From: Geobacillus thermocatenulatus
GTDB lineage: Bacteria > Bacillota > Bacilli > Bacillales > Anoxybacillaceae
Length of the DNA: 64,000 nucleotides
Reading direction: 5' to 3'
NCBI RefSeq assembly: GCF_002217655.1
Contig: NZ_NEWK01000002.1
Coordinates: 187,164-251,163, forward strand
In this document: in pieces, positions 829-58,631 of the stretch
Position numbering within the stretch: the first letter of the stretch is position 1
How the letters are laid out: each line of letters starts with the position of its first letter
Made by a program: the position numbers and the translations under genes
The notes under the pieces: model-generated
Databases searched by the model: none
The model's input: the letters and a program-made list of their open reading frames with translations, nothing else
Told to the model about the DNA's origin: nothing

Positions 829-857
829 TTATAAGTAAAACTATGTTCTAAATCATC
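829..857 (+). other. Replication terminator site (Ter), left copy 1
   Basis: The sequence CTATGTTCTAAATCATCAA (841-859) matches the B half of the B. subtilis Ter consensus (CTATGTACYAAATNTTC, as I recall it) with a GTAC to GTTC change. An AT-rich, weaker A half lies to its left. The 13-base core recurs at 2436 and, on the other strand, at 58616. An RTP gene lies 9.5 kb away. The B half faces right, so by the B. subtilis rule this site should stop leftward-moving forks. Confidence 0.75.
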
Positions 858-929
858 AATGAAAATCATAAAAAACCTACATTATGGCTATCCTTCTTGG
901 TAACAACAGTACGTGAAGGAGGCGCCGAC

Positions 930-2342
930 GTGGAAGGAACATGGTGGTCGCTGTTGCCTTTTTTGCTCATCATTCCATTGGCAATATGGTTGAAAGAAAT
1001 TTTACCCGGCCTCGTGGCCGGATTGCTCGTCGGGGCGTTTTGCCTTGAGCGGTCGGCTGTTGGCGCGATTGAGCGCGCTGTTTCCGCCATTCTTCACGCT
1101 CTTACGGATTCGGAACATATGAAAGTGGCGGCGTTCTTATATTTGTTCGGCTCTCTTGTCGGCATGATGCAAATTACCGGCGGGATCAAAGGGGTTGTCG
1201 AGAGACTTTCCGGCCGCATCCGCTCGAAGCGGGGGATTTTGTTGTTCGTTTGGCTGACGGTGCCGGTGACGTTTTTTATGCCGATGTTTCGCATTATGCT
1301 CCTTGGACCAGTGATGAAAGCGGTCCTTCGCCAGTTTCGCATCGACCGCCGCCGCATGGCGTACATGATCGATGTCTCAACCGAACCGATCATCGTGCTT
1401 TTGCCGGCGGCAACGGCATTTGTCGGCTTTATGACTTCCGTTGTCGCCGCGGCGCTTGAGCAAAACGACATTCACGAATCGCCGTATGACGTGTTTTTGC
1501 ACAGCCTGCCGTACAACTTGTTTGCGATTTTCGCTCTGGCCGTCGGGGTGTTGACGACGATGTTGAACATCCGGATCGGCAAACCGCGAGCGAAAAAAGA
1601 GGAAGGGGAAACGAATGAACTGCACGGACTCGGGTTGCGCAAGGAGCTGGCGCTGATCAACGGAGAGCCGCTTCATTTATTCGTTCCGTTGGCGCTGTTG
1701 CTCGGCTTGACGTTTGCCTTTTTTGTCTATGACGGTCGGCGGCGCGGAGCAAACCGCTGGATTGAGGCGTTTTCCGCGGCCGATGCGACATGGGCGATGA
1801 TGTTGGCGTTGTTTGTGACCATCCTTTTGTCGATGGCGTTTTATTTATGGCGTCGACAATCGCTTTCAGAGCTGACATACCATTTTTTTGCTGGAGGTAA
1901 CGAAATGATGGCGCCGATCGGCATGCTCGTTCTCGTATGGGCGGTCTCGGCGGTGGCGGGGGAACTAGGATTTGCGGAGTACGTGTCGTCGACGTTCGGC
2001 ACATGGCTGCCGGGGGCATTCGTGCCAGCGGCCGTGTTTTTGGTCGGATCGTTTTTATCCTACTTTATCGGTTCTTCATGGGGAACGTGGGGCATTTTGA
2101 TGCCGCTTGGCGTCACGCTTTCCCATGCGACCGGAGCGCCGCTCGAAGTGACAGTCGGCGCCGTGTTTGCGAGCGGGACGTTTGGCGCCTTTGCTTCTCC
2201 GCTTGGCGATACGACGATCACGACCGCAGCCATTATGGATATGGACTTGATGAGCTATGCGAAATATAAACTGCGCCTCTCTCTCCTTTGCGCCGGCGCG
2301 TCGCTCGCAGGATACGTTCTTTTGCCGCTTTGGATGCCATGA
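930..2342 (+). CDS. NhaC-family Na+/H+ antiporter-like membrane protein
   Basis: About 470 residues with around 11-12 hydrophobic segments. The C-terminal block containing FASPLGDTTITTAA fits the conserved P-x-S/G-D-T-T motif of the NhaC family (sodium/proton or dicarboxylate-coupled antiporters). I place the start at GTG 930 because AAGGAGG lies 7 bases upstream; an in-frame TTG at 897 has no such site. The protein sits in the cytoplasmic membrane. Its true substrate (Na+/H+, or malate/lactate exchange as in YqkI/MleN relatives) cannot be told from sequence. It is monocistronic, with a Ter site just upstream and another downstream. Confidence 0.8.
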   Translation: MEGTWWSLLPFLLIIPLAIWLKEILPGLVAGLLVGAFCLERSAVGAIERAVSAILHALTDSEHMKVAAFLYLFGSLVGMMQITGGIKGVVERLSGRIRSKRGILLFVWLTVPVTFFMPMFRIMLLGPVMKAVLRQFRIDRRRMAYMIDVSTEPIIVLLPAATAFVGFMTSVVAAALEQNDIHESPYDVFLHSLPYNLFAIFALAVGVLTTMLNIRIGKPRAKKEEGETNELHGLGLRKELALINGEPLHLFVPLALLLGLTFAFFVYDGRRRGANRWIEAFSAADATWAMMLALFVTILLSMAFYLWRRQSLSELTYHFFAGGNEMMAPIGMLVLVWAVSAVAGELGFAEYVSSTFGTWLPGAFVPAAVFLVGSFLSYFIGSSWGTWGILMPLGVTLSHATGAPLEVTVGAVFASGTFGAFASPLGDTTITTAAIMDMDLMSYAKYKLRLSLLCAGASLAGYVLLPLWMP

Positions 2343-2420
2343 ACCAGCGGAACGCGCCGCCGGCCGGTCTTTTCAAGCTTCCTAATAGGTGAACAGGTTG
2401 GGATGTTCACCGTCTCATTT

Positions 2421-2449
2421 TATAATTATAAAAAATGTTCTAAATAATC
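2421..2449 (+). other. Replication terminator site (Ter), left copy 2
   Basis: AAATGTTCTAAATAATCAA (2433-2451) repeats the core of the copy at 841 in the same orientation. The first two bases of the CTATG core are AA here, so this copy may be weaker. It lies between the nhaC-like gene and the promoter at 2463. Its orientation should block forks moving leftward. Confidence 0.7.
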
Positions 2450-2462
2450 AATAAATCAACAA

Positions 2463-2491
2463 TTGAAAACAAGAACAAACCAGAGTATGAT
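2463..2491 (+). promoter_or_regulatory. Sigma-A promoter of the thioesterase operon
   Basis: TTGAAA (2463-2468) and TATGAT (2486-2491) are separated by exactly 17 bases, which is the ideal geometry. The start point would fall inside the palindrome at 2501, fitting repression by promoter occlusion. Confidence 0.65.
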
Positions 2492-2500
2492 AAAAATAAC

Positions 2501-2518
2501 ATACTGACTAGTTGGTAG
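2501..2518 (+). promoter_or_regulatory. Palindromic operator (TetR type?) upstream of the thioesterase operon
   Basis: ATACTGACTAGTTGGTAG lies 9 bases after the -10 element. It matches 14 of 18 positions of the palindrome upstream of the SDR/enoyl-CoA hydratase cluster when that site (43675-43692) is read on the - strand (ATACTAACCGGTTGGTAT). The position relative to the -10 is nearly the same at both. I infer one TetR-like regulator, encoded outside this window. Confidence 0.6.
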
Positions 2519-2609
2519 CTGCAAATCCAACTCAGCCACGCCCCATGCTCACCCAAACGAATATTGTGGGCGAAAGGGGCAAAAAAAGGAAAGAAAGGAA
2601 GAGGGAGAA

Positions 2610-3059
2610 ATGAAGACGCACATTATTACCATCAACCCACGCTTTTGTGAAACGGATGCGCTTGGACATTTAAGCAACATTAGCTATTTTATTTATTTAG
2701 AAGAAGCGCGCACCCGCCTGTTTGATGAATGGCGTTACGGCGGGCGAACGGACGACTGGCATTTTATTTTAGCTTCCACCAAGTGCGATTTTATCAACCA
2801 AGGATTCTTCGGACGACGATTGCGCGTGGAAACCAATGTCTCCCGGATTGGCAATAAAAGCTTTCAATGCATTCATCGCATCATGGAAGAGGAAACAGGG
2901 AGACTGATCGCCATTGGAGAGGCAGCGGTCGTCCATTTCAATTTCCAAACCCAAACGAGCGAACCATTGCCCGATGACTTGCGGACCATGCTTGCCGAAT
3001 ACCTTGTGCCGTCCGTGGGGGAAACGATTTCGCCGGCATCGTGCAAAAAAAGGGAGTGA
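2610..3059 (+). CDS. Acyl-CoA thioesterase, 4HBT hot-dog fold
   Basis: 149 residues. The N-terminus (PRFCETDALGHLSN-x(4)-YLEEAR) is the classic YbgC/4-hydroxybenzoyl-CoA thioesterase motif, with the catalytic Asp in ETDALGH. Such enzymes hydrolyse short or medium acyl-CoA thioesters in the cytosol. The RBS GAGGGAG precedes the ATG. It is the first gene of a likely three-gene operon with a PLP enzyme and an acyl-CoA dehydrogenase, behind a clear promoter and palindromic operator. That suggests a catabolic acyl-CoA pathway. The substrate is unknown. Confidence 0.82.
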   Translation: MKTHIITINPRFCETDALGHLSNISYFIYLEEARTRLFDEWRYGGRTDDWHFILASTKCDFINQGFFGRRLRVETNVSRIGNKSFQCIHRIMEEETGRLIAIGEAAVVHFNFQTQTSEPLPDDLRTMLAEYLVPSVGETISPASCKKRE

Positions 3060-3176
3060 ATACCATCCGCCTGTACGGCGGATTTTTCATTTTCAACTTT
3101 CCCACGTTTTTTGGACCGAACCACCGAAGGCGACATACTTTGTAAATAGACGAAATGGCGGAAAGGGGGAATCAAC

Positions 3177-4676: not shown

Positions 4677-4780
4677 GCTTCCGAGAGCAAGGACGGTCAT
4701 TTTTTCATGCGTTTTTGTTTTCAGTCCTAGCCAGAACTCGGTACAATAAAGGCATCTTGACCAAAAGAAGGGGAGAACCG

Positions 4781-5959: not shown

Positions 5960-5983
5960 AACAGAACGGACTCAAGAACACGA

Positions 5984-6019
5984 AAAAGCTGTCCCGGCTT
6001 TGTGGGGGACAGCTTTTTT
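5984..6019. terminator. Bidirectional terminator between the acyl-CoA dehydrogenase and speE
   Basis: AAAAAGCTGTCCC and GGGACAGCTTTTTT form a stem with A-rich and T-rich tails. It can end the + operon and also the convergent speE gene, which stops at 6032. Confidence 0.85.
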
Positions 6020-6031
6020 GATGCCAAGCGG

Positions 6032-6907: not shown

Positions 6908-6952
6908 TGTGACCTCCTTTAGTCATGCAGATGTTTTCACACCTTTCTAATC

Positions 6953-7135
6953 TTAATATATTCTTCGTCTTGTGGCAAACAAAGGGGATGTGATCGGCCG
7001 GTGCCGGACGGACGTATTCATCCCGCCGCCCATGTTTGACGACTGGTTTCTTTTTTCCAATTGATGATCGTTCTTGCCGCCACATCCCGCGCAAAGGCCG
7101 AGCGCCAAGGTGCCAATCGCCGCCAAGGCCGCCAT
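6953..7135 (-). CDS. Possible small lipoprotein or decayed ORF
   Basis: A 60-codon frame between nsrR and speE encodes a hydrophobic start (MAALAAIGTLALGLCAGCGG) that looks like a signal region with a lipobox-like Cys, followed by a polar tail. The same frame reads back about 20 further codons without a good start codon or RBS. It may be a degraded gene or have a non-standard start. No family recognised. Confidence 0.3.
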   Translation of the reverse strand: MAALAAIGTLALGLCAGCGGKNDHQLEKRNQSSNMGGGMNTSVRHRPITSPLFATRRRIY

Positions 7136-9312: not shown

Positions 9313-10215
9313 ATGACGACATTTCGCCAACATCGCTGGCAATCATTTTTGCAAGGTTACGAGCAGCGCGCTCGAATCCTTATTTCCTGCCCAGATCGCC
9401 CGGGCATCGTCGCGGCGGTGACGTCGTTTCTGTACGAACAAGGGGCGAATATCGTGGAATCGAGCCAATACTCGACTGACCCTGAGGGAGGGACGTTTTT
9501 TCTCCGCTTGGAGTTCGACTGTCCGAACATCGCCGAGCGAAAAGAAGAGATCGAAGCGGCGTTCGCCCCGATCGCGGCTGAATTTCAGATGCGTTGGCAG
9601 CTTCGGCTGCACAACGATATTCGGCGAATCGCGATTTTGGTCTCCAAAGCCGAGCATTGTCTGCTTGAACTTCTTTGGCAATGGCAGGCGGGAGAGCTGA
9701 TCGCCGACATCGCCCTTGTCATCAGCAACCACCCCGACTTGCGCGAGACGGTCGAGTCGTTTGGCATCCCGTATGTGCATATTCCGGTGACGAAAGAAAC
9801 GAAAGCGGACGCCGAAGCCGAACAAATTCGTCTGCTTCGTGAGTATCAGATCGACACGATCGTGCTTGCCCGCTACATGCAAATTTTGTCGCCGGCGTTT
9901 GTGGCTGAATTCCCGGGACGGATCATCAACATCCACCACTCATTTTTGCCCGCCTTTATCGGCGCGCGTCCGTATGAGCGGGCGTATGAGCGCGGCGTCA
10001 AATTGATCGGCGCCACATCGCACTACGTCACCGACGATTTGGATGAAGGGCCGATCATTGAGCAGGACGTCGCCCGCGTGGATCACCGCCACCATCCGGA
10101 CGACTTAAAGCGGATCGGCCGACTGATTGAAAAAACGGTGCTCGCCCGGGCGCTTCGGTGGCATTTGGAAGACCGGGTCATCATCCACGGAAATAAAACG
10201 ATCGTGTTTTATTGA
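9313..10215 (+). CDS. purU: Formyltetrahydrofolate deformylase
   Basis: 300 residues from ATG 9313 (RBS AAGGGAGAG). An N-terminal ACT domain ([21 protein letters not shown], about 20-95) precedes a formyltransferase-fold domain with [23 protein letters not shown] and [16 protein letters not shown], which hold the catalytic His and Asp. It hydrolyses 10-formyl-THF to THF and formate, balancing one-carbon pools. Size equals B. subtilis PurU (YkkE). An earlier ATG at 9277 lacks a good RBS. Confidence 0.93.
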
Positions 10216-10218
10216 AAC

Positions 10219-10250
10219 CAAGCGGGAGAGGATTTTTCCTTTCCCGCTTG
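10219..10250. other. Inverted repeat at the purU-rtp junction
   Basis: CAAGCGGGA and TCCCGCTTG form a 9-bp perfect stem with an AT-rich loop. No T-tract follows the right arm, so it is a weak terminator at best. It directly precedes a TATAAT-like element (10251-10256) that could serve rtp. Confidence 0.45.
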
Positions 10251-10324
10251 ATATAATGAAGACAAGCAGGATTTCGCCGCCCAAAGAGCGAAATTTCATC
10301 CGTAGGGAAGGAGGGAAAAAGCCT

Positions 10325-10699
10325 ATGGGAGAAAAACGGACGCCCAGCGGTTTTCTGTTAAAACAACGTGCGTTTTTAAAATTGTATTTGATTACGCTCA
10401 CCGAACAGGAGCGGCTGTACGGACTGAAGCTGCTTGATGTATTGCGCCAAGAGTTCAAGCCGTTTGGCTACCGGCCGAACCACTCCGAAGTGTATAAGGC
10501 GCTGCACGATTTGATTGAAGACGGCATTTTAAAGCAAGTGAAGCAGAAAAAAGAGGGAATGAAGTACCAAGAAGTCGTCTACTATCGGTTCGCCGAGGGC
10601 GGACAGGAAAAGGCGAAGCTGTACAAACGCCAGCTCAAGGCGGAACTTGATCGGTGCGCGGCGCTCATTCGCAAGGCGATTGAGGACAACTTCGGTTGA
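10325..10699 (+). CDS. rtp: Replication terminator protein (RTP)
   Basis: 124 residues from ATG 10325, preceded by AAGGAGGG. The sequence tracks B. subtilis RTP (122 residues) from end to end: GFLLKQRAFLKLYLITLTEQ, ERLYGLKLLDVLRQEF, PNHSEVYKALHDLIEDGILK and AKLYKRQLKAELDRCAALI. RTP is a winged-helix dimer that binds Ter sites in pairs and stops the replicative helicase in one direction. Finding it together with dif and opposed Ter-like motifs marks the replication terminus. A longer frame opening at 10127 overlaps purU and is not supported. Confidence 0.93.
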   Translation: MGEKRTPSGFLLKQRAFLKLYLITLTEQERLYGLKLLDVLRQEFKPFGYRPNHSEVYKALHDLIEDGILKQVKQKKEGMKYQEVVYYRFAEGGQEKAKLYKRQLKAELDRCAALIRKAIEDNFG

Positions 10700-10825
10700 G
10701 AGCGCCTCGTTTTTTCTTTGTTAAATTTACATAATATATTTATGGTCTAATTCTTTTGTTTTGCGTCCTGCCGGGCGATCTAGTAGAATGAGAGGGGAAG
10801 ATCGCCACAGAGAGGAAGTCAGAAG

Positions 10826-11701: not shown

Positions 11702-11711
11702 GAGGCTCGGC

Positions 11712-15779: not shown

Positions 15780-15867
<88 letters not shown>

Positions 15868-15898: not shown

Positions 15899-16324
15899 CT
15901 ATATGTAGTTCAATATTTCACGAGGCGCAAAGTTGTCGATTTTCTGCAATTCGTCTTTGCTCCATCATTTGAGTCCTTTCAGTGTGTCTTTTTCGTTCTT
16001 TGTCATATGTTCGATAGACAACACCGTATCGGATTGGATCGTGATTTGATAATAAATTTCCCGGCTAATAAAAGAACCTTGTTTTCCTTCAATCCATACA
16101 TCCAGTTGGAATATGGGCTCACCGAGAAGATCAACCACTATGCCTAGTTCTTCGTATAATTCCCTTTTTAAAGCTTCAGCTGGGGTCTCGTTTTCTTCAA
16201 TGCCCCCTCCTGGAGTAACCCATAACGCTTTGTTTCCTGCCACGTCCCGAAATTCAAATTGCTGAAGAAGAATTTCGTTTCGCTCATTGATGATCACTGC
16301 TCTAGCACATTTGCGTATCCTCAT
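15899..16324 (-). pseudogene. Nudix hydrolase with an in-frame nonsense codon
   Basis: The Nudix box GGGIEENETPAEALKRELYEE matches G-x5-E-x7-REUxEExGU exactly (about residues 38-60). The frame stops at TGA 15965-15967 after 119 codons (ending LKGLK). The DNA then continues in the same frame for 21 codons of typical Nudix tail (WSKDELQKIDNFAPREILNY) to a TAG at 15899. Many relatives read LKGLKWW at this point, so a TGG to TGA change is the simple explanation. The truncated 119-residue product keeps the whole catalytic box and might still fold. RBS AAGGAGCG precedes the ATG. Confidence 0.8.
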
Positions 16325-16343
16325 CGGGCGCTCCTTTCCAGAT

Positions 16344-16415
16344 CTATTTTACAGATGCAGCCGGCCATGACTGCCGAACTCGGGTTTCATAAATGGCCCG
16401 AATTCGAACGTCCAT
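16344..16415 (-). CDS. 23-codon ORF with strong RBS (leader or gene stub)
   Basis: AAGGAG precedes ATG 16415, which encodes a 23-residue peptide starting MDVRIRAIYETR. The first nine residues and the DNA around the start closely resemble the start of the stub inside the mini-IS at 58900 (MDVRIHAIY). It is likely a truncated 5' end of a gene, or a short leader. Function unknown. Confidence 0.4.
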   Translation of the reverse strand: MDVRIRAIYETRVRQSWPAASVK

Positions 16416-16486
16416 GATGGGAAAACTCCTTCTTTTCTTTGTGTGTCAAAGATTCATATTTATTGATAAAAAACTAACTAAGAGAA

Positions 16487-17443
16487 TCATAAAATAGAAT
16501 AATTCCTACCCCGCCCTTCAATCTGATCCTTGTATCCGATCAGTGTGTTCTTCATGGTATTCGGATAGCCTGTCTTGAGTCTAAGCTCTTTTAGAGGCAT
16601 CGCTGGATTCTCAACCATGATCTTTTGAATTCGTATTATTTCTTGTGAATCATATGCTGCTTTATAAGCCATAAAAGGTGATACATAGTCGCTGATATTG
16701 ACAAAGGTGAGTTCTTCGTGTCCCGTCCATTTATATAGTTTGATTTGCTGTTGAAACTTCATTAAGTTATTTCCTTCAATAAGGAACCGGTATATTAAAT
16801 CACTTTTTATCTTGGCAGTATTGGACGATTCAAGATAATTTTGTTCCAACAAAAATATAACCATCCCCATAAATGTATCCACTATTTGCAAAGGTATTGA
16901 TTTAACAGAGTTTTGAGAAAGGACATTAACAACGCGGTAATTTTTATTGCGATAAGCCGAATGTGCATTCATCTGTTCAATGATTTTCGTTTCAAGAAAA
17001 AGCTTATCATACTCATCATTCTGGTCTACCTTAATCTTCACCTTAATCGTTCCAGATTCTTGACTTGATAAATCCCGAGTCATTCCATAAAATAATCTTT
17101 CCGGTATTTTGATATAGAATAAGTTTCTTAGTTCAGTCGCCGTTAATCCGATTTTCTGTGCCGCATACAAAGCATCCCTATTATTAACGGTTAGAATATT
17201 AATCTGTACATTCTCATTAATAACCGTATGAAGAGTTTGAAAATATTTTTTGACAAGGTTGTCTTTCGTATACTCTCGAAAATGAAGTTCACTAAAAGAA
17301 TTACACTGTTTAAAAATGTTTCGAACTTGCTTAACAACCCTTGCCATTGCGGCATCGGTTCCTCCGTAAGCCCCATAGTAAGAATAGTCAGCGTTAAACT
17401 GGTCGAGTTTATTGCTCTCATCAAAATAGATTAAGTAGTGCAT
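16487..17443 (-). CDS. DUF3800-domain protein
   Basis: 318 residues. The start MHYLIYFDESNKL has the conserved FDES motif of DUF3800, an RNase H-like fold family often found near mobile and defence genes; its reaction is not established. Conserved polar positions include VKIKVDQNDEYDK (about 140) and QIVDTFMGMV (about 195), where the Asp fits the family's second acidic site. The gene is AT-rich compared with neighbours, suggesting transfer. The RBS AAAGGAG lies before ATG 17443. A tandem-hairpin RNA lies in its 5' region. Confidence 0.75.
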   Translation of the reverse strand: MHYLIYFDESNKLDQFNADYSYYGAYGGTDAAMARVVKQVRNIFKQCNSFSELHFREYTKDNLVKKYFQTLHTVINENVQINILTVNNRDALYAAQKIGLTATELRNLFYIKIPERLFYGMTRDLSSQESGTIKVKIKVDQNDEYDKLFLETKIIEQMNAHSAYRNKNYRVVNVLSQNSVKSIPLQIVDTFMGMVIFLLEQNYLESSNTAKIKSDLIYRFLIEGNNLMKFQQQIKLYKWTGHEELTFVNISDYVSPFMAYKAAYDSQEIIRIQKIMVENPAMPLKELRLKTGYPNTMKNTLIGYKDQIEGRGRNYSIL

Positions 17444-17529
17444 ATTTAAAGTAAACTCCTTTACTTTCCATACATAAATTCATTTTGTGTTGACTAAAAC
17501 ACGTTTATACCTTACAATCATAAAAAGAA

Positions 17530-17627
17530 GGTGTTGTTTTCCCCGCCGCCGCTGGGCAGGGCTGATAACATCTCAACGTACGGAAGGATAGCTTTTCCCC
17601 GCCACCGTTGGGCAGGGCTGAGCTATC
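17530..17627 (-). ncRNA. Tandem-hairpin RNA upstream of the DUF3800 gene
   Basis: Read on the - strand, two hairpins (17627-17587 and 17572-17530) share CAGCCCTGCCCA, GGCGGGGAAAA and the same inner 7-bp stem (CCCTGCC with GGCGGGG). Their outer stems differ in sequence yet still pair (GATAGCT/AGCTATC versus GATGTT/AACACC). The internal loop (CAG opposite AAA) is invariant. Conserved shape with changed outer pairs means selection on RNA structure. Candidate structured RNAs named after DUF3800 genes have been described by comparative genomics; this fits that theme, though I cannot assign a subtype. Confidence 0.7.
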
Positions 17628-17893
17628 TTTTTATTTTGACGTGAACGTTTGTCCTGTCCCTTTCCCTATGCTATTTGATCTTGATTTGATTCTGCCGCAA
17701 TCATACTGAAAAACACATAATTTGTCAATAAAATACATACTATTCTCAAAGATTCTCCGAAGGCTCTTTTCTCTCTGCAAATCTCTGACACATAAGCATA
17801 AAAACAGGTAATTGAGCGCTCTAGTTTCCTTTCAACGAATCTTTCCCTTTTGATCCACAACAAGTCTAAGAAAGAATCCCTGGATATGAATAT
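17628..17893. other. AT-rich intergenic stretch
   Basis: No convincing gene. On the - strand this is the likely promoter and leader region for the DUF3800 transcript. A 65-codon - strand frame (17666-17863) has no RBS and no recognisable content. Confidence 0.5.
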
Positions 17894-17935
17894 AAAAAAG
17901 CAGCTTGCCCCTTAAACGGACAAGCTGCTTTTTTT
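17894..17935 (-). terminator. katG terminator
   Basis: AAGCAGCTTG and CAAGCTGCTT pair, flanked by A-run and T-run on either side, directly after the katG stop. Confidence 0.88.
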
Positions 17936-17940
17936 GCTGG

Positions 17941-20160
<2,220 letters not shown>

Positions 20161-37987: not shown

Positions 37988-38109
37988 GTCCCATTCCGAA
38001 ATAATTCACAAAAAATTTAGCACATTCTTTCGGAAAGGGGGAGAGGGATATTCCGAAGGAATGTGCAAAAAAGAGTCTTTTTTGTGCGGAAATAAAGTGA
38101 TAATTTACA
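37985..38109. repeat. Right-end iteron array of the transposon
   Basis: Units CCGAAATAATTCAC (37994), GCACATTCTTTCGGA (38021), TTCCGAAGGAATGTGC (38050) and the terminal GGAAATAAAGTGATAATTTA (38088-38107). A close relative forms the right end of the second element at 49446-49535. Confidence 0.7.
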
Positions 38110-38299
38110 CTTTCATAGGCATACGTTTTACCAAATTAATCCTTATTAATATGATTCACTCGCAAGCTCGTTCCATTAGCATATAAAATCGAGGAAGCAA
38201 TAAGGGCTTCTTCAGTCTTATCTTTCCGATCGATTCATCCACATGAAATCAGCTTAGAATAGTTCCAATGTTTATTGAGAAATAAAAGCACAGAGATTT

Positions 38300-38562
38300 A
38301 CAGAGAATTTAGTTTGCACCAACTTTACATGGAGTAATAGGCAACGATCGATCAATTGGGGACTTCGTTTTGTCTTGCAACCCCATCCTGAAATCGCAAC
38401 CTCGAATGTATTTCGTTGGATTCAAGGGTTTGTCTAGGGTTTCTTTCAGATTTCGCTTCTCCATGGACACCCTTGCCTTTGACTGATGATTCACATATCC
38501 CAACATCCCCCGACGCCCATAGAGGACTTTCACCGCCTAGTTCATCGACCTACCCGGCACAC
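38300..38562 (-). mobile_element. 5' fragment of a group IIC (bacterial class C) intron
   Basis: On the - strand, starting at 38562: GTGTGCCGGGTAGG, then GGTGAAAGTCC, GGCAAGGGTGTCC, GAAATCTGAAAGAAACC and ACAAAACGAAGTCC, ending near AAAGTTGGTGCAAACTAAA. These blocks appear in the same order in the 5' domain I of Geobacillus GsI-IIC-type introns as I recall it. It sits immediately after a terminator hairpin (38566-38604), the known target of class C introns. No intron-encoded protein or domain V/VI is present, so it is a 5' stub of about 260 bases. Confidence 0.75.
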
Positions 38563-38565
38563 AAT

Positions 38566-38604
38566 AAAAATCGCAGTTGTAAAATTAAACAACTGCGATT
38601 TTAT
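38566..38604 (-). terminator. Terminator of the secreted-protein gene, intron target
   Basis: AAAATCGCAGTTGT and ACAACTGCGATTTT form a 14-bp stem followed on the - strand by TTTTTATTGT and then the intron 5' end. Confidence 0.85.
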
Positions 38605-38614
38605 AAAATGGAAA

Positions 38615-39013
38615 TTATGGTTTATAAACTTGAATTCCACCATATGAACTTACATCTTTTTCAGGCGTATTATAGTGTCTGACAGAATATTCACCTGGTC
38701 CAGGCTTAAATACTTTCTCAACATACCGCTCACTTCCACTAATTGTCCCCTTATACCATTCGACACCGTTTTTAAATATCTTATAAGTCGTACTTTTACG
38801 AGGAGCATTATAGTAATAATAAATGCCCACATGTAACTCTTGTCCACTTTCAACTGTTACTCGAGAAGTAGTTGCGCTACTTTCCCCTACGCGTAAATTA
38901 AGTCCTGATTGTTCAACTAAAACTGCGGCATAGGCACTAGTAATTGTAATGATCGAAAGAACTAATGAAGCTAAGATAATTAGTAGATTCTTTTTCTTCT
39001 TGCTAAATGTCAT
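38615..39013 (-). CDS. Small secreted protein of unknown function
   Basis: 132 residues. Signal peptide: KKKKN, hydrophobic LLIILASLVLSIITITSAYA with an AYA-type cleavage site near residue 29. The mature part is Ser/Tyr-rich, with an SH3-like or beta-sandwich look (LNLRVGESSATTSRVTVESG). No family assigned. AT-rich relative to the host genome, so probably imported with the mobile region. Own terminator; AT-rich promoter region at 39014-39200. Confidence 0.65.
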   Translation of the reverse strand: MTFSKKKKNLLIILASLVLSIITITSAYAAVLVEQSGLNLRVGESSATTSRVTVESGQELHVGIYYYYNAPRKSTTYKIFKNGVEWYKGTISGSERYVEKVFKPGPGEYSVRHYNTPEKDVSSYGGIQVYKP

Positions 39014-39224
39014 TTTGCCAAATCCCCTTTCTTTTTTTATTATTTTTTAAATAATTATACAATGGAAACTATGTCGAAATTTGTTACAATTTGTATTATG
39101 TCGAAAAATAGTAATATTTTACTATTAGATACCAATTCTCTATCGATATAGGATTTGAAGCCAAGCATAACTTAAAATTGTCGATCATATTTACTCTTAT
39201 TGAAAAAAGTGAGGAAAATCCTAT

Positions 39225-39435
39225 AGCATAAACGGTGTGAACGAACTCCTTCATCGCCATGGATATTACGAGAAGAATGCCGTTGTAAGAGATCAAACGT
39301 ATTGCATTTGGCTCCCCCGTTATTGGTGTTCCGAATGCCAGGGACGGTACTCCCCCCTTTCTCCTTCCCTATTTCCAATACACGATCCCAATGATTTTCT
39401 CCTATGTCAAAGAGCGATTAGCCTTGATCCGACAA
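39225..39435 (+). pseudogene. Decayed fragment of a DUF6431 gene
   Basis: Encodes LLHRHGYYEKNAVVRDQTYC and RYWCSEC, then after a frameshift near 39343 PPFLLPYFQYTIPMIFSYVK and ERLALIRQRG, paralleling residues 50-115 of the intact DUF6431 protein at 37394-37987. Opposite orientation, so this is the remnant of another transposon copy. Confidence 0.75.
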
Positions 39436-39469
39436 AGAGGGATCCGTTTGTCCCCGTCCTTTCTGACCT

Positions 39470-39824
39470 GACAGGGCGTATCATTTTAGATATGACGCTC
39501 GAACAAGCGGCGGAAGCAGTAATGGCATGGGTTCGGCAATCTAATATGGCGGTCAGCGTTATAGAGAAAAAAACGGAATCGGAGCGTTATAACGATGATA
39601 TACAAGCGCTAAAAGAAATGGTCGCCAAACAGAACGAGTTGCTAAAAGAACTCATGATGAGGCTGGATCAGCAACAAAAATACATAGAGGAAAACCTAAA
39701 GAAAAGGGATGAACTTCTTATGCAGTCCCTAAAGGAGTCCATGGAGACACGCAAAATGATCGCGGCGGCCAAAGAGGAAGAAGGGAAAAAGAAAGGGTTT
39801 TGGGCCCGTCTGTTTGGTAAATAA
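39470..39824 (+). pseudogene. C-terminal part of a DUF3967-type protein
   Basis: About 118 codons: LEQAAEAVMAWVRQSN, a long coiled coil (DDIQALKEMVAKQNELLKEL) and the ending KKKGFWARLFGK. DUF3967 proteins usually have a MerR-like N-terminal DNA-binding domain and occur on plasmids and mobile elements of bacilli. That domain is missing. An open frame from 39237 fuses the DUF6431 relic to this part, probably by chance. Confidence 0.6.
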
Positions 39825-39930
39825 GTCTGTTCATCAAATTGATGAATAGTTAGGGTCTGGAATCCGCAAATTGCGGACTCGCATCAAATACCATAACGGC
39901 GATATAACGCTATAAGCGACACAATTAAAG

Positions 39931-39966
39931 AGGGTGTCCCCAAAGTTGAGGACACCCTTAAAATTT
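39931..39966 (+). terminator. Terminator after the DUF3967 fragment
   Basis: AGGGTGTCC and GGACACCCT form a 9-bp stem followed by TAAAATTTAG. Confidence 0.6.
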
Positions 39967-40021
39967 AGGAGAAAATATCGGAGCAGAGTAAGGCGAATAT
40001 CGCCCGATTATCGTAGTATCC

Positions 40022-45583: not shown

Positions 45584-46148
45584 CTAATACCTCATTTCCT
45601 CTGCGGCCATGCGCACCACTTCTTCGTCAATGGCGTCCTTTTTCAGCTGATGCCCGTATAACAGGCACGTCGTGGCCAACGTGTTGATCACCCGAGGCCA
45701 TCCCCGCGACTGCAGGGCAATCGCCTCTAACGCCGATGGAGTGAAGATCGGATGCTTCGCCCCGGCCTGTTTCATCCGATGCTCGATGTAGCCCGCCACC
45801 TCTTCCTTCTCCAGCGGCCCATCCGGTATCGCATGATGATTCGCTGATCGAGAGGGCGGTGCTGATGGAGCCGCAGCTTCCCCTGTAAATGGGGCAGCCC
45901 GGCCAAAATCAAGACAAATGGGTTGGTCGAATCCATCTCAAAGTTGAACAAGATGGCGATGTCCTGTAAAAAGGCATCCTTTGCGAAATGCATCTCGTCC
46001 AAAATGAACACCGGCGTGATCCGTCGTTCATGATACAATCGCTCGATCGCCTGCTGGATTTGGCGGAAGAGGTCTACCTTGCGGTACTTCGGTTCCTCTC
46101 CTAATCCCAAGGCCAGTCCACGGTAAAAATCCATCACGCCTCCGGTGG
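45584..46148 (-). pseudogene. Truncated, frameshifted transposon ATPase
   Basis: Matches residues of about 80-266 of the ATPase at 35211-36011. A one-base deletion near 45817 (GGCCC where the intact gene has GGCCCC) splits it into two frames: MDFYRGLALGLGEEPKYRK onward, and YIEHRMKQAGAKHPIFTPSA onward. The Walker A part is gone, replaced by an IS end at 46155. Confidence 0.88.
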
Positions 46149-46154
46149 ATAACG

Positions 46155-46545
46155 CTCACATTTCGCATCCAGACCATCCCAAGATAAAGGATTTTTTATT
46201 TACTTTTCAAAAATAATTTCCGGCCCAACACGATAAGCGATGGCAATCCTTTTTTTACCATCGCTCGTCGTTCCTTATCGCCTTTCGCATATTTGGCCTT
46301 CGGATCCCATTCGTTGTGAGCAAGCTGGAGATACGCCACGGTCGTTCCATCTTTGTTTTTGCGTGTGACTCGCCGTATGTACATGCCTATATTATAACCG
46401 ATATTCAGCTTTTTTAAAAGTTAAAATAAATGATTCGTGTGCCTATGGAATTCAGCGTTTTTTTCTAGGATCCGCATCGTGAAATCCTTGATATTACAGC
46501 ATTTTAACCATTTTCATTTGCCTAAAATGGCCTCAAAACTGTCGA
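46155..46545 (-). mobile_element. IS1634-type mini-element remnant
   Basis: The - strand frame 46384-46196 encodes the start of an IS1634-like transposase (MYIRRVTRKNKDGTTVAYLQ) joined to right-end sequence (RRAMVKKGLPSLIVLGRKLF), so the centre of the gene is deleted. The right terminus reads, inverted, CTCACATTTCGCATCC. Upstream DNA to about 46540 (CCGAGTTCGACAGTTTTGAG) recurs at 34927-34946 and is probably the other end of such an element. Confidence 0.7.
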
Positions 46546-46785
46546 ACTCGGGTTTATATTTAAAAAGTCTAAATGCTTTTTTATTAAGTGTCTTACTTTT
46601 TCAACTTCAGATTTATCTCTGTATTCGTCATCGATTTCATCTAATTTTAATATCTCAATTCCATATTTATTTCCAAAAATATAAGCATTAAGATTTGGTT
46701 CCCATTTAATACGAAATCCTTTACTTACTATTGTTATCCTCCCTCTATAAATAGACAAGCAGACAGTATACGTCTGCTTGCCCAT
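46522..46785 (-). pseudogene. Small gene of the peptide cassette, truncated at its 3' end
   Basis: About 87 codons from ATG 46785, or about 70 if translation begins near the good RBS GAGGGAGG (46733-46740), which however is not followed by a standard start codon. The segment IKWEPNLNAYIFGNKYGIEI loosely recalls the start of ribosomal protein uS2 (RWNPKM-x(2)-YIF-x(3)-NGI), possibly by chance. The last nine codons are IS-derived sequence, so the native C-terminus is lost. Confidence 0.45.
46756..46780 (-). promoter_or_regulatory. Hairpin between the peptide gene and the downstream ORF
   Basis: CAAGCAGAC and GTCTGCTTG form a 9-bp perfect stem with a 7-base loop, 13 bases after the peptide stop. 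A weak or partial terminator here would give more peptide mRNA than downstream mRNA. Confidence 0.6.
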
Positions 46786-46792
46786 TTTTAAA

Positions 46793-46903
46793 TTACTGAA
46801 TCTTTGATTCCATAATTCTACCTGTTGGGTGATTACAAATTGCTGCAACACCTTTTGGCTTAAGTGGTTGTGGCTTGAGCGTTTCTTTGTTATTTACTTC
46901 CAT
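46793..46903 (-). CDS. 36-residue peptide, possible exported/modified peptide precursor
   Basis: ATG 46903 follows a near-perfect RBS (AAGGAGGTGAGAAAA). The peptide starts MEVNNKETLKPQPLKPKG and ends VAAICNHPTGRIMESKIQ: a charged leader-like half and a half with one Cys. Neighbours are an MFS exporter upstream and a small ORF downstream, with a dyad-bearing promoter region before it and a hairpin after it. This plan is common for small secreted or modified peptides, but no modifying enzyme is present here. Confidence 0.55.
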   Translation of the reverse strand: MEVNNKETLKPQPLKPKGVAAICNHPTGRIMESKIQ

Positions 46904-46930
46904 TTTTCTCACCTCCTTACATATAAATTC

Positions 46931-46960
46931 CTCTAAATCTATAATAAATATGATTTAGAG
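46931..46960 (-). promoter_or_regulatory. Inverted repeat in the promoter region of the peptide gene
   Basis: CTCTAAATC and GATTTAGAG are perfect 9-bp arms separated by TATAATAAATAT, 28 bases before the peptide start. A TATTATAG element on the - strand lies between the arms. Likely operator. The right half superficially resembles the Ter core but differs in the GTTC part. Confidence 0.6.
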
Positions 46961-46974
46961 CAAAATAAGGAATA

Positions 46975-48225
46975 CTAGTGAGTCTGTGTATTTTCAATCC
47001 TTTTTACTTTATTAGGCGTATGGATATAATGTTTATATGCATATAAGGAACCTACTACAAAATGTATTATCCCCATAAACAAAAATACGAATTTAGTCCC
47101 CCACAAATCTCCAACAAAACCGAATAATAGCGCAGATAATGGATATGAAATTGCAATAATACAATTAATAAAACCATTTGTTCTACCAATTAAATTATCT
47201 GGGATTTCTATTTGACGGATTTTCAATCCGATCATCGAACGTATATTAGTCAGCATGAATTCGATAAAAAAGAGAACTATTACAAAGTACCAAGGAACAA
47301 AAAACATTCCGATGAAAGTAAACGATGCTAAAATGACCATAAAAGAATATAAACGTAGCTTAAAATCTTCATATTTATTGATTATTCGAGGCGCAATTAC
47401 AGAAGATATGATTCCAAGTAGTATTACAGCGCTGTAAATAACTCCAATATATATCGAGCTTAAATTATTTTCCGATGCCAGATAATAAAATAAAAAGGTA
47501 TAAAATGAAGCTCTTGCAAGATTTGTAAACCAATTAATAGATGTTACTTCTAACAAGGTTTTATTAGTACGAAGAAGAGTTAGACCTTCTTTTAGTTCAC
47601 TTAAATAATCCAATAGCACACCTTTTTCTGAGTTTCCCTTTTTATTTTTATAATTCGGGAATTTAATTGGTATAAATAAAAATACTAATATAGGTATTAC
47701 GTATAAAAACGAATTGAATAGTAATGTGAAACTTGCTCCCCATAATCCAATCATCGTACCACTTAATATTTGTCCCATTGCCTGAGCGATCTGTATTGTA
47801 CCTGTATAATATGCATTTATCTTATTTAACTGTTCTTTTTCGACCAAATATGGCAAAATCGAATGTTCAGATAATATTCTATTCACCATGATTACTGTCG
47901 TAATCATAAAAGCAACAACATAAATAACTCCAATGCGAAAAAAATCAAATATATCTAATAATGGTATTATAAGTAAAAGAACAAGCCTAAGTGAGTCAGA
48001 TAATACCAACAAAAGTCTTCTGTTCATGTTATCTAGTAAATTTCCAATAAATGGACCAATAATTATGTAGGGTAAATACTCGACTGCGAATACAGATGCG
48101 AACGTAGTTATACTCTCACCTTTTTCTAGTACAATAAATGCAAGCGCAAGCGCATATATGTTCTCACCAAATCTAGAAAATATATTAGAAATAAAATATA
48201 ATACGAACCATTTCTTATCGATCAT
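46975..48225 (-). CDS. MFS efflux transporter
   Basis: 416 residues with 12 membrane segments. GPFIGNLLDNMNRRLLLVLSD is the MFS loop 2-3 motif (G-x3-D-x2-NRR), and the family is that of macrolide/lipopeptide efflux pumps (Mef-like). Very AT-rich with A/T-ending codons, unlike the host genes, so it was acquired. RBS GAAGGAG precedes the ATG. It may export the peptide encoded next to it or confer drug resistance; sequence cannot decide. Confidence 0.82.
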   Translation of the reverse strand: MIDKKWFVLYFISNIFSRFGENIYALALAFIVLEKGESITTFASVFAVEYLPYIIIGPFIGNLLDNMNRRLLLVLSDSLRLVLLLIIPLLDIFDFFRIGVIYVVAFMITTVIMVNRILSEHSILPYLVEKEQLNKINAYYTGTIQIAQAMGQILSGTMIGLWGASFTLLFNSFLYVIPILVFLFIPIKFPNYKNKKGNSEKGVLLDYLSELKEGLTLLRTNKTLLEVTSINWFTNLARASFYTFLFYYLASENNLSSIYIGVIYSAVILLGIISSVIAPRIINKYEDFKLRLYSFMVILASFTFIGMFFVPWYFVIVLFFIEFMLTNIRSMIGLKIRQIEIPDNLIGRTNGFINCIIAISYPLSALLFGFVGDLWGTKFVFLFMGIIHFVVGSLYAYKHYIHTPNKVKRIENTQTH

Positions 48226-52505: not shown

Positions 52506-52645
52506 AATTCTCTCCCCTTTTCCCCGCCATTCGTTCTCTCATCTCGCAAAACGAGAAGCATGCATCCTACGGGGCCATTGAACAGGAAGCAACGCTCTCG
52601 TCCTTATTGTAGCAGATGCTTCCAAAAGAAAATAGAGCAAATGTT

Positions 52646-54763: not shown

Positions 54764-54850
54764 TTTGATCCGCTTCCTTTCAAGTCGATCATGCTGTTGT
54801 TAGTATGAGCGGATCAGGGAAAACTAAACCAACTTGGCCAGCCCTGTTGT

Positions 54851-55285
54851 TCATTTGCGAAAAAAGAGCCAAAGCGCCAAAAATAGAAAGCCCATAGCGG
54901 CTAGGCGCATCATGTCAAATGGAATACGCTGTCCGCCGAACAGACCAAAATGGTCAACAATTGAACTCATGACAAGCTGACCAACAATCACCGCCATCAA
55001 TGAATTGGCAACACCGATTTTCGGGACGATGAGCACCATCACAAATACATAAAAGGCGCCAAGAACACCTCCGGTCAGTTGCCATTTCGGCACGGAAAAC
55101 ATGGCAAGCAATTCTCCTTTGCCCAAAAACAATTGCACTAAAAAGAGGACAACCGTCCCGATCAAAAACGAAACGAACGCTCCTTCAAACACACCGATCC
55201 GCTTGCCCAGGCCGCCGTTGACTCCGGCCTGTACGGAAACAGCCATTCCGGCAGCCAAGGCCAGCAGCATCCATAACCATTTCAC
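54851..55285 (-). CDS. DMT-superfamily transporter (YdcZ/DUF606)
   Basis: 144 residues, five membrane helices: AAGMAVSVQAGVNGGLGKRI and LGAFYVFVMVLIVPKIGVAN are DUF606 hallmarks. Half-size DMT proteins usually dimerise or pair with a second copy, none of which is present here. Substrate unknown. RBS GGGGGAATGGG. Confidence 0.82.
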   Translation of the reverse strand: MKWLWMLLALAAGMAVSVQAGVNGGLGKRIGVFEGAFVSFLIGTVVLFLVQLFLGKGELLAMFSVPKWQLTGGVLGAFYVFVMVLIVPKIGVANSLMAVIVGQLVMSSIVDHFGLFGGQRIPFDMMRLAAMGFLFLALWLFFRK

Positions 55286-55455
55286 GTCCCATTCCCCCTA
55301 AGGCGCCAACATTCCTCTTTATCATGATTCAGTTCAAAAAAACTTGTCAAGATATTGGCCATAGCAGCCGAAAAACCCAGGCATGTTGGTTAACCAATAA
55401 AAACCAGATGAGAAGGCTCTATTCCTAGCTGTTCTGCCGTAGTCGGCCATCGGAT

Positions 55456-56664
55456 TCATTGAACAAAAGAATGCCAAAGCCCCCCGGCGAACGAAACGAG
55501 AACAACCGCCCAGGCCGGCCACTTCCAAACGGCAAGGAGAAGAAAAGCGCCAAGAACAAACGCGAAATCGGCCGGCTCGTTCACCGCTTTCGTCCAAATC
55601 GGGTCGTACAGCGCCGCGAGCAAAATCCCGACGACAGCGGCGTTCATGCCGACAAGCGCCGCTTGGAAGCGCGGCTGATGGCGAAGCCAGTGCCAAAACG
55701 GAAACGCGCCAAGCACAAGCAAAAACGAGGGAAGAAAAATGGCTATGGTGGCAACGAGCGCCCCTTTCCAGCCAAAGCTGGCCATCCCAATATAGGCGGC
55801 AAACGTGAACAGCGGCCCCGGAACAGCTTGCGCGGCGCTGTAGCCGGCTAAAAACTGGCTGGCGGTGATCCACCCTTGCGGCACCACTTCCGCTTCCAAA
55901 AGCGGCAGCACGACATGCCCACCGCCAAACACGAGCGCCCCTGCGCGGTAAAAGCTGTCAAACAGCGCCCAAAGCGGTGAAGAAATCGAAGCGCGAACAA
56001 GCGGCAGCGCGACAAGCAGCACAGCAAACAGCAAAAGCAGCGTTGCACCAATGGAACGGCGAATAAAAGGCGGAATGCCTGCCACAGATGAGGAAAGGGC
56101 GACGTTTTTGCTTCGCAATCCAAAAGCGCCAATGCCTCCTGCTGCGGCGATGACGGCGACTTGGCTCCACGCGCCCGGCACAAGAAGCACGGCGACGGCT
56201 GCTATGGTCGCAATTGTCGCCTCAAGGCGGCCGACAGCGAATTTGTGCGCCATCTCCCATACGGCTTGGGCTACGACCGCCACGGCTGCCATCAGCAAGC
56301 CGTGCATCCAGCCGGCGTCACCCCAAGAATGGTGTTGTAGCCAAACAGCAACCAGGCTGAGGGCGACCGCTGACGGCAACGTAAACCCAAGCCAAGCTGC
56401 CAACGCTCCCCAAACGCCGGCGCGCATCAGTCCGATGCCAATGCCAACCTGGCTGCTCGCTGGACCGGGAAGAAATTGGCAAAGAGCAACAAGATCGGCA
56501 TACGTTTTGTCGTCAATCCATTTTTTTCGTTTCACATACTCTTCATAAAAATAGCCAAGATGGGCCACGGGTCCGCCAAACGACGTCAAGCCAAGGCGAA
56601 GCGCCGTGATTCCGACTTCCCAGACGGAGCCGTGTCGGTTTGCTGCTTGTTTCTTTGCAGCCAT
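55456..56664 (-). CDS. chrA: Chromate transporter (CHR family)
   Basis: 402 residues with two homologous CHR halves: RLGLTSFGGPVAHLGYFYEE and LCQFLPGPASSQVGI in the first, FYRAGALVFGGGHVVLPLLE and YSAAQAVPGPLFTFAAYIG in the second. The two-domain ChrA expels chromate from the cytosol. About 10-12 membrane helices. RBS GAAAGGAGCGGG. Divergent from queT-like. Confidence 0.9.
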   Translation of the reverse strand: MAAKKQAANRHGSVWEVGITALRLGLTSFGGPVAHLGYFYEEYVKRKKWIDDKTYADLVALCQFLPGPASSQVGIGIGLMRAGVWGALAAWLGFTLPSAVALSLVAVWLQHHSWGDAGWMHGLLMAAVAVVAQAVWEMAHKFAVGRLEATIATIAAVAVLLVPGAWSQVAVIAAAGGIGAFGLRSKNVALSSSVAGIPPFIRRSIGATLLLLFAVLLVALPLVRASISSPLWALFDSFYRAGALVFGGGHVVLPLLEAEVVPQGWITASQFLAGYSAAQAVPGPLFTFAAYIGMASFGWKGALVATIAIFLPSFLLVLGAFPFWHWLRHQPRFQAALVGMNAAVVGILLAALYDPIWTKAVNEPADFAFVLGAFLLLAVWKWPAWAVVLVSFAGGLWHSFVQ

Positions 56665-56736
56665 GGATCCCGCTCCTTTCGTTCACGAGAGTGTCATGCT
56701 ACAATCATATCATCATGCACGAGAGGAGAGAATACC

Positions 56737-57243
56737 ATGAACGTTCGAACGATGGCGACAAACGGTTTGATCGCCGCCGTGTATATCGCTGTGACGGCGT
56801 TCATCCAGCCGTTTGGCTTTACGAACATTCAGTTTCGCGTCTCAGAAATGTTAAACCACCTAGTCGTATTCCGCCGAACATACGCCGTTGGCATCGTGCT
56901 TGGCGTCTTTTTTGCCAATTTGTTTTTCTCGCCGATTGTCGCATATGATCTTGTATTCGGCGTCGGCCAGTCGGTGCTGGCGCTGCTGATCACGATCTTT
57001 TCCATGCGGCGCGTGAAAAACGTTTGGGCGCGCATGGTGGTCAATACGTTGTCGTTTACCGCAACGATGGCCATCATCGCCCTCGAGCTGAAACTAGCGC
57101 TCGGCTTTCCGTTTTGGCTCACATGGCTGACGACGGCCATCGGCGAGTTTGTCGTCATGGCCATCGGCGCGCCGATCATGTATGCCGTCGGCCGCCGGAT
57201 CGCTCTAGAAGCCTTCCGGGCTGCTGACGGACGCAACGACTGA
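56737..57243 (+). CDS. queT: QueT-type queuosine precursor transporter
   Basis: 168 residues from ATG 56737 (GAGGAGAG 5 bases upstream), five to six helices. FTNIQFRVSEMLNHLVVF is the QueT family N-terminal motif, and FFANLFFSPIVAYDLVFGVG follows. QueT is the substrate-binding component of ECF-type uptake of preQ0/preQ1 or queuine. No preQ1 riboswitch is visible in the short leader (about 70 bases), which is slightly unusual. Frames further upstream overlap chrA and are not real. Confidence 0.85.
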   Translation: MNVRTMATNGLIAAVYIAVTAFIQPFGFTNIQFRVSEMLNHLVVFRRTYAVGIVLGVFFANLFFSPIVAYDLVFGVGQSVLALLITIFSMRRVKNVWARMVVNTLSFTATMAIIALELKLALGFPFWLTWLTTAIGEFVVMAIGAPIMYAVGRRIALEAFRAADGRND

Positions 57244-57253
57244 CCAAGTGTTC

Positions 57254-57511
57254 CTACGGCATCGAGCGAACCGCCCATTCGATGATCAATGAACAGACGG
57301 CGGCGAGCGCCGAGGCCGCCGTCATGGTGGTTAGCATAGACCGCAACTGGGGATGAATATTGGGGCGAAAGTGAAGGATGGCGAGACTGACAGCAACCCC
57401 TCCGATCCATACGACAAGACCCACGGGCGTCATAAGCACGTCCCAGTCGCTAATCCAGAAATAAATCACAGCCGCATGGCAGGCCAGCAGCGCATATAGG
57501 ATCATCCTCAC
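57254..57511 (-). CDS. Small membrane protein of unknown function
   Basis: 85 residues, two to three helices. GTG start 57511 overlaps the stop of the upstream transporter gene (GTGA), so it is translationally coupled. No family recognised. Confidence 0.65.
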   Translation of the reverse strand: MRMILYALLACHAAVIYFWISDWDVLMTPVGLVVWIGGVAVSLAILHFRPNIHPQLRSMLTTMTAASALAAVCSLIIEWAVRSMP

Positions 57512-58509
57512 TGCTCTTCCCCCACGCGATAGGAACGCGAGGCTGCTGAAACCGGTGGGGCCTGCCGGTTCACCGTCTTTGCAGACTCAAAACTATGCCA
57601 GCAAATCCCCGCCACAATGACCGCTAAGCCGACAAACGCCAAGCCGTTCGGAAACGGAGCCGATAATAACAGCACTTCGCCGATAACGGCAAAAATCACT
57701 TCTCCGGATTGCGTCGCTTCTACAGCGGCCAGCTTCCGCTCATTTCCTTTCGCCCGGTCAGTGGCGATGAAAAAAAGCGTCGTCGCGATAACGCCCGAGC
57801 TGATAGCGACAATGAGCGACTGCGCCGTTTGCCCAGCCGAAGGAACTCCGGCTGTCACCCATCCAATCAGCGCCACGACGAACCAAAACGGCAGGCTGGC
57901 CATCGTCATCCCGAATACGCGTTGAAACGCATCAAGACGCCCGGCGCAATGTTCGATCATTTTCCGATTGCCAAGCGGATACGCAAACGCGGCAATCAGC
58001 ACAGGAAAGACCCCCAACGCGATTTCTTTCCAGGTGAGGCGGCTTGCTTGCTGGAACTGGATAAGCACGACGCCGAGCAAAATAAAAAATGAAATGAAGA
58101 GCGCCCGTTTTTCAATCGGACGGCGCACCAATACCGTTCCATTTTTCGTTTCTCTTCGTTCTATAAACAGCGGGCTAAGCAGAACGCCGGCCACAATCGT
58201 GCACTGCCATGTGCCGGCCACCAGCCATCCGGGCCCGTAGGCGGCCGCGTAGGTGAGCGGCGCGTAAAACAAACCGAAACCGACCGTCCCCCAGACGATC
58301 CATGTCCACGGATAGCGTTTCATGTCGCGCCAAATCGGACCGAGGCTGCGGCGTGCCAGAAGAATGGCAAACAGCAACGGAACCATAAAGAAAAAACGAA
58401 GTGACGAGCTCCATGTCCAACTTCCGCCAGCTAGCTCCATAGACCGGTTCAAGATGAACGTAACGGCAAAAAAGAACGAGGCGGCAAGGCCGAGGGCCAT
58501 TTCCCGCAT
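57508..58509 (-). CDS. EmrE-like DMT multidrug transporter
   Basis: 333 residues from ATG 58509 (AAAAGGGGAGAGA). Ten helices in two repeats: MALGLAASFFFAVTFILNRS and the second half at IALGVFPVLIAAFAYPLGNR. It fits the large multidrug-resistance EmrE-type family (about 330 residues). In-frame ATG codons at 58545 and nearby lack an RBS. A Ter site lies in the upstream region. Substrate unknown. Confidence 0.82.
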   Translation of the reverse strand: MREMALGLAASFFFAVTFILNRSMELAGGSWTWSSSLRFFFMVPLLFAILLARRSLGPIWRDMKRYPWTWIVWGTVGFGLFYAPLTYAAAYGPGWLVAGTWQCTIVAGVLLSPLFIERRETKNGTVLVRRPIEKRALFISFFILLGVVLIQFQQASRLTWKEIALGVFPVLIAAFAYPLGNRKMIEHCAGRLDAFQRVFGMTMASLPFWFVVALIGWVTAGVPSAGQTAQSLIVAISSGVIATTLFFIATDRAKGNERKLAAVEATQSGEVIFAVIGEVLLLSAPFPNGLAFVGLAVIVAGICWHSFESAKTVNRQAPPVSAASRSYRVGEEQ

Positions 58510-58602
58510 GGTCGGTCTCTCCCCTTTTGTGATTAGATTCATCATATGGCAGAGCAGTTTTATTTTATCGCATTATTGAAAATTTTTCTATTTGTTTTTT
58601 TT

Positions 58603-58631
58603 GATTATTTAGAACATAGTTTTTTATGATA
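58603..58631 (-). other. Replication terminator site (Ter), right copy
   Basis: On the - strand CTATGTTCTAAATAATCAA (58619-58601) is the same core as at 841 and 2433 but inverted relative to them. It should block forks moving rightward. It lies in the upstream region of the EmrE-like gene. Confidence 0.75.

Follow-up and report, generated by a model that had tools for sequence, protein, structure and literature searches.

A 64,000-nucleotide stretch of the Geobacillus thermocatenulatus genome (NCBI RefSeq assembly GCF_002217655.1, contig NZ_NEWK01000002.1, positions 187,164 to 251,163), referred to below as the window, is very probably the replication terminus of this bacterium, equipped with what appears to be a working fork trap made up of the terminator protein RTP and its polar DNA sites, known as Ter. 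An intact rtp gene, a dif site and three Ter-type sites can be read directly from the DNA, as can their order, orientation and position, their conservation among relatives, and the co-variation of site and protein between lineages (Table 1). The trap, with GTTC in place of GTAC in the core of its sites, is a variant of the known RTP-Ter system and comes with a testable switch in specificity.

Extrapolating from Bacillus subtilis, dimers of RTP would bind the Ter sites, and a fork that meets the B half of a site first would be stopped while one that meets the A half would pass, in keeping with the polarity rule in reviews (PMC13220808, in its accessible part). The left-hand sites, on the (+) strand, would then halt leftward forks and the right-hand ones, on the (-) strand, rightward forks, so that forks could enter but not leave the 56-kb stretch that holds rtp and dif, and termination would be kept near dif. 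Farther out, weaker-looking sites may act as backstops; they extend to 360 kb on the right of dif and, if contig C1 joins contig C2, to 426 kb on its left. The core ATGTTC would be read by an RTP with lysine 59 in its recognition helix, and this residue may set the base preference.

Table 1. Positions, strands and properties of the terminus features in the window.
Feature	Position	Strand	Remarks
Ter-type site 1	826..864 (core 841-859)	+	Exact core; matrix score 49.2; intergenic, 5' of a Na+/H+ antiporter-family gene; orientation predicted to block leftward forks
Ter-type site 2	2418..2456 (core 2433-2451)	+	Weaker; matrix score 36.2; orientation as site 1; putative innermost left barrier
rtp	10325..10699	+	124 amino acids; PF02334, E-value 9.5e-53, above the curated cut-off
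dif, ACTTCTTATAATTTATATTATGTTAACT	15780..15807	+	Unique match to the dif pattern in the genome at <=3 mismatches
Ter-type site 3	58596..58634 (core 58601-58619)	-	Exact core; matrix score 50.2; intergenic, 5' of an EmrE-family gene; orientation predicted to block rightward forks; putative innermost right barrier

The terminus region and its features

A preliminary description of the window had proposed Ter-type sites at 841 (+), 2433 (+) and 58619 (-), and all three are present, where 0.01 such cores would be expected by chance and none of 100 shuffled sequences held three. A weight matrix of 39 columns, trained on 52 sites from other genomes of the family (Anoxybacillaceae), gives scores above 12 in the window only at these sites, none of which overlaps a chosen open reading frame (ORF) of at least 100 amino acids, and the inner span of the trap, from 2433 to 58601, is 56 kb. 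Site 2, intergenic and 5' of a thioesterase gene, has two mismatches in its core, both at the first two bases (AAATG versus CTATG). Set against the B. subtilis consensus KMACTAANWNNWCTATGTACYAAATNTTC, as given in the accessible part of PMC3317982, the B half shows two changes, GTTC where the consensus has GTAC and MATC where it has NTTC, and the A half is looser; hence the earlier view that the B half matches that of B. subtilis apart from GTTC was right about this difference but overlooked the second one and the looser A half.

Between these sites, as had been proposed, lies an intact rtp. Its product matches the structure of B. subtilis RTP (PDB 1BM9) with an E-value of 1.2e-50, has predicted helices at residues 12-27, 36-47 and 53-65 (mean pLDDT, the predicted local distance difference test, 82.6), and is identical to the RTP of Geobacillus proteiniphilus and G. 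zalihae, among the best 80 of 110 relatives. A dif-like site also sits inside the putative trap, at the only place in the genome that fits the dif pattern; a search of 26 genomes found this pattern in 24. With the dif pattern of B. subtilis, no match was seen in the window at up to three mismatches, and a looser pattern gave three candidates, the best fit being 15780-15807. Another candidate at 10726-10742 (-), 26 bp 3' of rtp, was rejected because by eye its XerD arm alone matches.

The position of the terminus is borne out by base composition and gene direction. Within the window, cumulative GC skew is highest at 15831, 24 bp past dif; a flip far from here was what the preliminary description had named as evidence against it. 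Across the genome, the skew has the expected sign in all 20 sampled stretches: 13 from dnaA to dif are positive (the first of them spans dnaA), six past dif are negative, and the one before dnaA, which holds 1000 N, is negative. With dnaA at 18.8 kb on C1, the two arms to dif measure about 1.9 and 1.7 Mb, which puts dif roughly opposite oriC, provided that C1 joins C2 head to tail, a join supported by the position of dnaA and by the skew. Coding strand, tallied with ORFs as a proxy for genes, flips at dif within the trap, as had also been claimed (left, 10.9 kb on + and 1.3 kb on -; right, 8.4 kb on + and 31.7 kb on -). Stretches of low GC content (0.34-0.39, with most 2-kb windows at least 0.5) occur at 16001-18000, 38001-40000 and 46001-48000 and are perhaps recent insertions near the terminus.

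Polarity of the Ter-type sites

The pattern ATGTTCTAAATNATCA has 14 copies in the genome (four exact, three with one mismatch and seven with two), which the matrix splits into seven scoring 15.8 to 50.2 and seven at or below 3.3. All good sites left of dif are on the (+) strand (C1:1498686, a GTGC variant, C2:188006 and C2:189598) and all those to the right on the (-) strand (C2:245765, 312833, 315588 and 563163). Trap polarity thus holds for seven of seven, six on C2 and one on C1 that depends on the C1-C2 join; the outermost, at the 360 kb and, with that join, 426 kb from dif mentioned above, are weaker than the inner ones. The orientation proposed for the trap of about 56 kb, with a left pair facing leftward forks and a right site facing rightward ones, is therefore upheld genome-wide, and the unpolarised scatter of copies that would have spoken against it was not found among the good sites.

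The arrangement recurs throughout the family. RTP occurs in 41 of 41 family genomes examined and in nine of nine genera, with no stops in rtp, and exact ATGTTCTAAATNATCA was found in all 41, the reversed control pattern in none; in G026 to G037 the sites are known from this count. On dif-bearing contigs of 17 of these genomes, 50 of 50 exact GTTC sites are polar about dif, a count that leaves aside sites on small contigs and two GTTCA variants in genus g2; for G010, which has two dif-like matches, polarity was taken from the match some 6 kb away from rtp. Among the matches listed, five Geobacillus genomes have six exact GTGC variants, all six of them polar. As a control, 20 genomes listed of 211 that are negative for RTP gave eight matches to a looser core, one each in eight genomes, with matrix scores of -12.5 to 9.9, under all seven sites of G. 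thermocatenulatus. It is highly unlikely that the sites serve a transcription regulator as operators, for instance of adjoining transporter genes, and not as fork barriers: transporter genes do follow sites 1 and 3, and in several relatives a Ter-like site precedes rtp, so that RTP may also repress, but polarity about dif in 50 of 50 cases would be unexpected of operators, and the control matches score below every site here.

Very unlikely, too, is a relic or near-silent trap, in which sites and rtp persist but few forks are arrested and termination comes about by forks meeting freely near dif. Such a state would fit a skew that flips at dif and not at a Ter site, the mild phenotype of B. subtilis mutants lacking RTP (as stated in the accessible part of PMC13220808), and the departure of five of the seven sites in this genome from the usual A-half junction; the persistence of exact cores and of an rtp free of stops in all 41 genomes argues against it.

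Polarity about dif extends to other families, where the counts use sites that we picked as Ter-like: it holds for GTTC sites in three genomes (3/3 in G371, 3/3 in G121 and 2/2 in G138), for five of six GTAC sites in G176, which is of the B. subtilis type, and for five of five ATGTNCAAAATTC sites, of the GTGC class and within 400 kb, in the Domibacillus-type genome G118, where a second tally takes in these five and one more picked by eye. G249, with too few sites for such a count, is left aside.

Several observations weigh against a polar trap of this kind. The A half is weak: its AAC[TC]ATG junction is present in 48 of the 52 matrix sites and in two of the seven sites of this genome. Two near-variants in genus g2, ATGTTCTAAATGTTCA at G002:C1:2193315 (+) and G005:C1:1137426 (-), have the opposite polarity; they are not among the 50, since the pattern used for that count ends in ATCA. 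In other families, an exact match at 62357 (-) in G121, excluded as not Ter-like, has the wrong polarity, a looser pattern in G118 has 10 sites of which two are wrongly oriented, and the one deviating site of G176 lies beside rtp in opposed orientation, as terI and terII do in B. subtilis. Finally, no Ter-like site was found within 600 bp upstream of rtp (window 9725-10325). A Ter site in the rtp promoter region serves autoregulation in B. subtilis and is not taken here as defining for a fork trap; its absence from these 600 bp suggests that autoregulation differs in Geobacillus.

Further observations concern the surroundings of these sites. An ORF of 312 amino acids precedes rtp in the window; many relatives among Anoxybacillus, Metabacillus and the B. 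subtilis group, unlike the window, have a Ter-like site about 60-310 bp upstream of rtp. In G002 and G005, the ATGTTCTAAATGTTCA sites each have a normal Ter a few kb away. One and the same 39-mer, in which the Ter core is combined with a different A-half junction, is found on small contigs in five genomes (G018:C57, G020:C2, G022:C2, G025:C2, twice, and G027:C4) and perhaps belongs to a mobile element; G033:C2 and G038:C3 carry a more Ter-like site, and a further small contig (G027:C5:5029-10517) holds fragments of second copies of rtp and dif.

Core-base classes and residue 59 of RTP

The preliminary description suggested that GTTC would be a lineage-specific change in Geobacillus, an idea that points the wrong way, as GTAC is the main core, on this sampling, in the B. 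subtilis group only and GTTC is widespread: it is found in 41 of 41 genomes and nine of nine genera of the family and, together with rtp, in Metabacillus, Peribacillus, Sediminibacillus, Salipaludibacillus, Aeribacillus, Atopococcus and the families designated f14, f23 and f33, with f44 having GTTC and some GTGC. Domibacillus and its relatives have ATGTGCAAAATTCA and Mesobacillus, Lederbergia and their relatives mostly ATGTGCTAAA, both of the GTGC type; in Mesobacillus campisalis one site is GTAC and another GTGC, and Priestia loci mostly lack a site near rtp. Judging from these sites, GTTC would be the commoner core among the relatives sampled and B. subtilis the exception. The RTP tree places the B. 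subtilis group within rows that have lysine at position 59 (K59) and GTTC, a nesting of modest support (84/82 and 81/63) that makes the form of this group look derived.

The core base goes together with this residue. The base N of ATGTNC was called from sites in the 600 bp 5' of rtp or from exact sites in the fetched locus for the 128 distinct loci among 150 rtp rows, L061 and L066, whose frame was not found, and L108 having been left out beforehand. Under rule B, one of three site rules, the 128 distinct loci comprise 83 with a single base, three mixed and 42 without a call. Residue 59 (B. subtilis numbering) is lysine in all 49 single-base loci with T (GTTC) and arginine (R59) in all 34 with A or G (GTAC or GTGC; 17 each). 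Two of the mixed loci are K59 with G and T and the third, L225, is R59 with G and T; under rule C, the loosest, three R59 loci hold T beside G. Among the matches listed, K59 genomes of the family also carry a minority of GTGC sites. A fair wording for these sequences is that K59 goes with T and tolerates G, and that R59 goes with A or G.

In the RTP of the window this position is Lys58, in the third helix (53-65) of the predicted model. The third helix is the recognition helix of the winged-helix fold. The co-variation may nevertheless owe to shared ancestry alone, with another residue or contact setting specificity, a real possibility if somewhat short of an even one. The poorly resolved tree implies only about four changes in each trait, with one independent pair on its starred branches and four on the best tree, too few for a statistical test of the link; columns 9, 87 and 80 nearly separate the classes as well, and G294 and G353 each have three GTGC exact sites versus one GTTC (K59 was read in G294 only). 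Against mere ancestry stand the location of the residue in the recognition helix and its being the sole perfect separator among 122 columns, under all three site rules. If residue 59 does set the preference, the K59/R59 split would make the reading of DNA by RTP accessible through a single residue. Residue 55, with S going with ATC and T with TTC, was considered for the other altered position and set aside, as its separation of 35 of 35 locus calls is shared with several columns and G098 has S55 with four TTC sites.

Spread and history of RTP

The trap has its closest counterpart in B. subtilis, with a homologous RTP (1BM9), asymmetric sites with a conserved B half, and opposed groups of sites around rtp and dif. 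It differs in the core (GTTC for GTAC, ATC for TTC), the looser A half, the residues of the window RTP at 59 (K for R) and 55 (S for T), the lack of a Ter site in the 600 bp upstream of rtp, and the distance between the innermost sites, 56 kb here versus about 0.1 kb for terI and terII (PMC13220808, accessible part). The Tus-Ter system of Escherichia coli likewise places polar barriers around dif, with a protein and a site that are unrelated according to reviews (PMC13220808, same part).

Previous accounts, in the parts accessible, describe fork traps as not broadly conserved beyond bacteria closely related to E. coli or B. subtilis (Kono, 2012; PMC3317982), RTP as found only in a subgroup of Bacillales (Galli, 2019; PMC6549158), and rtp as a proposed gain by B. 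subtilis after its split from B. licheniformis (Rey, 2004, on the B. licheniformis genome; PMC545597). The literature searched, to the extent of its accessible text, contains no Geobacillus Ter sites and no RTP core besides GTAC; earlier reports may exist in subscription papers (e.g., a 1998 Bacillus survey, PMC107290). Because the published consensus demands GTAC, scanning with it would overlook the sites in most of the genera shown here to carry RTP.

Order-wide, 118 of 397 genomes exceed the RTP cut-off, including a weaker group at E-values of about 1e-9. Among named genomes, the best 80 of 110 relatives with RTP include Geobacillus, Parageobacillus, Anoxybacillus, Priestia, Metabacillus, Peribacillus, Aeribacillus, Sediminibacillus, Salipaludibacillus, Domibacillus, Mesobacillus and Lederbergia, besides one contig of Brevibacillus laterosporus and Atopococcus tabaci (Carnobacteriaceae). 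Given rtp and polar sites throughout the family and in others, a loss of rtp in B. licheniformis would seem a better reading of the sequences sampled than a late gain by B. subtilis. Taken together, we give about an even chance to the view that RTP-Ter is old and widespread in Bacillales families, that residue 59 largely sets its specificity classes (K for GTTC, R for GTAC and GTGC), that B. subtilis, from which the RTP structures found come, is an outlier with a derived form, and that the RTPs carried by large plasmids and by phages form a mobile branch of the same family.

As for these last, scanning the plasmid and phage neighbourhoods L108 and L227-L230 with the core pattern revealed no convincing Ter, and no exact Ter was found in the viral contigs scanned. 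RTP homologues occur in three records of two Brevibacillus phages, on a viral contig (L108:9995-10372), and on 16 of 72,556 plasmids, which range from 69 kb to 1.08 Mb and are all typed as non-mobilizable; 14 of the plasmid homologues are annotated as helix-turn-helix regulators, the plasmid stretches L227-L229 encode their own DNA polymerase genes, and the best plasmid match (72%, annotated rtp) could be chromosomal DNA. A divergent RTP-like family, mostly with one copy per genome, is present in other families of the order, namely f7, f36 and f39 (E-values of about 1e-9) and, more weakly, f24 (about 1e-6), and at L087; it may represent either a distant form of RTP or a different winged-helix regulator.

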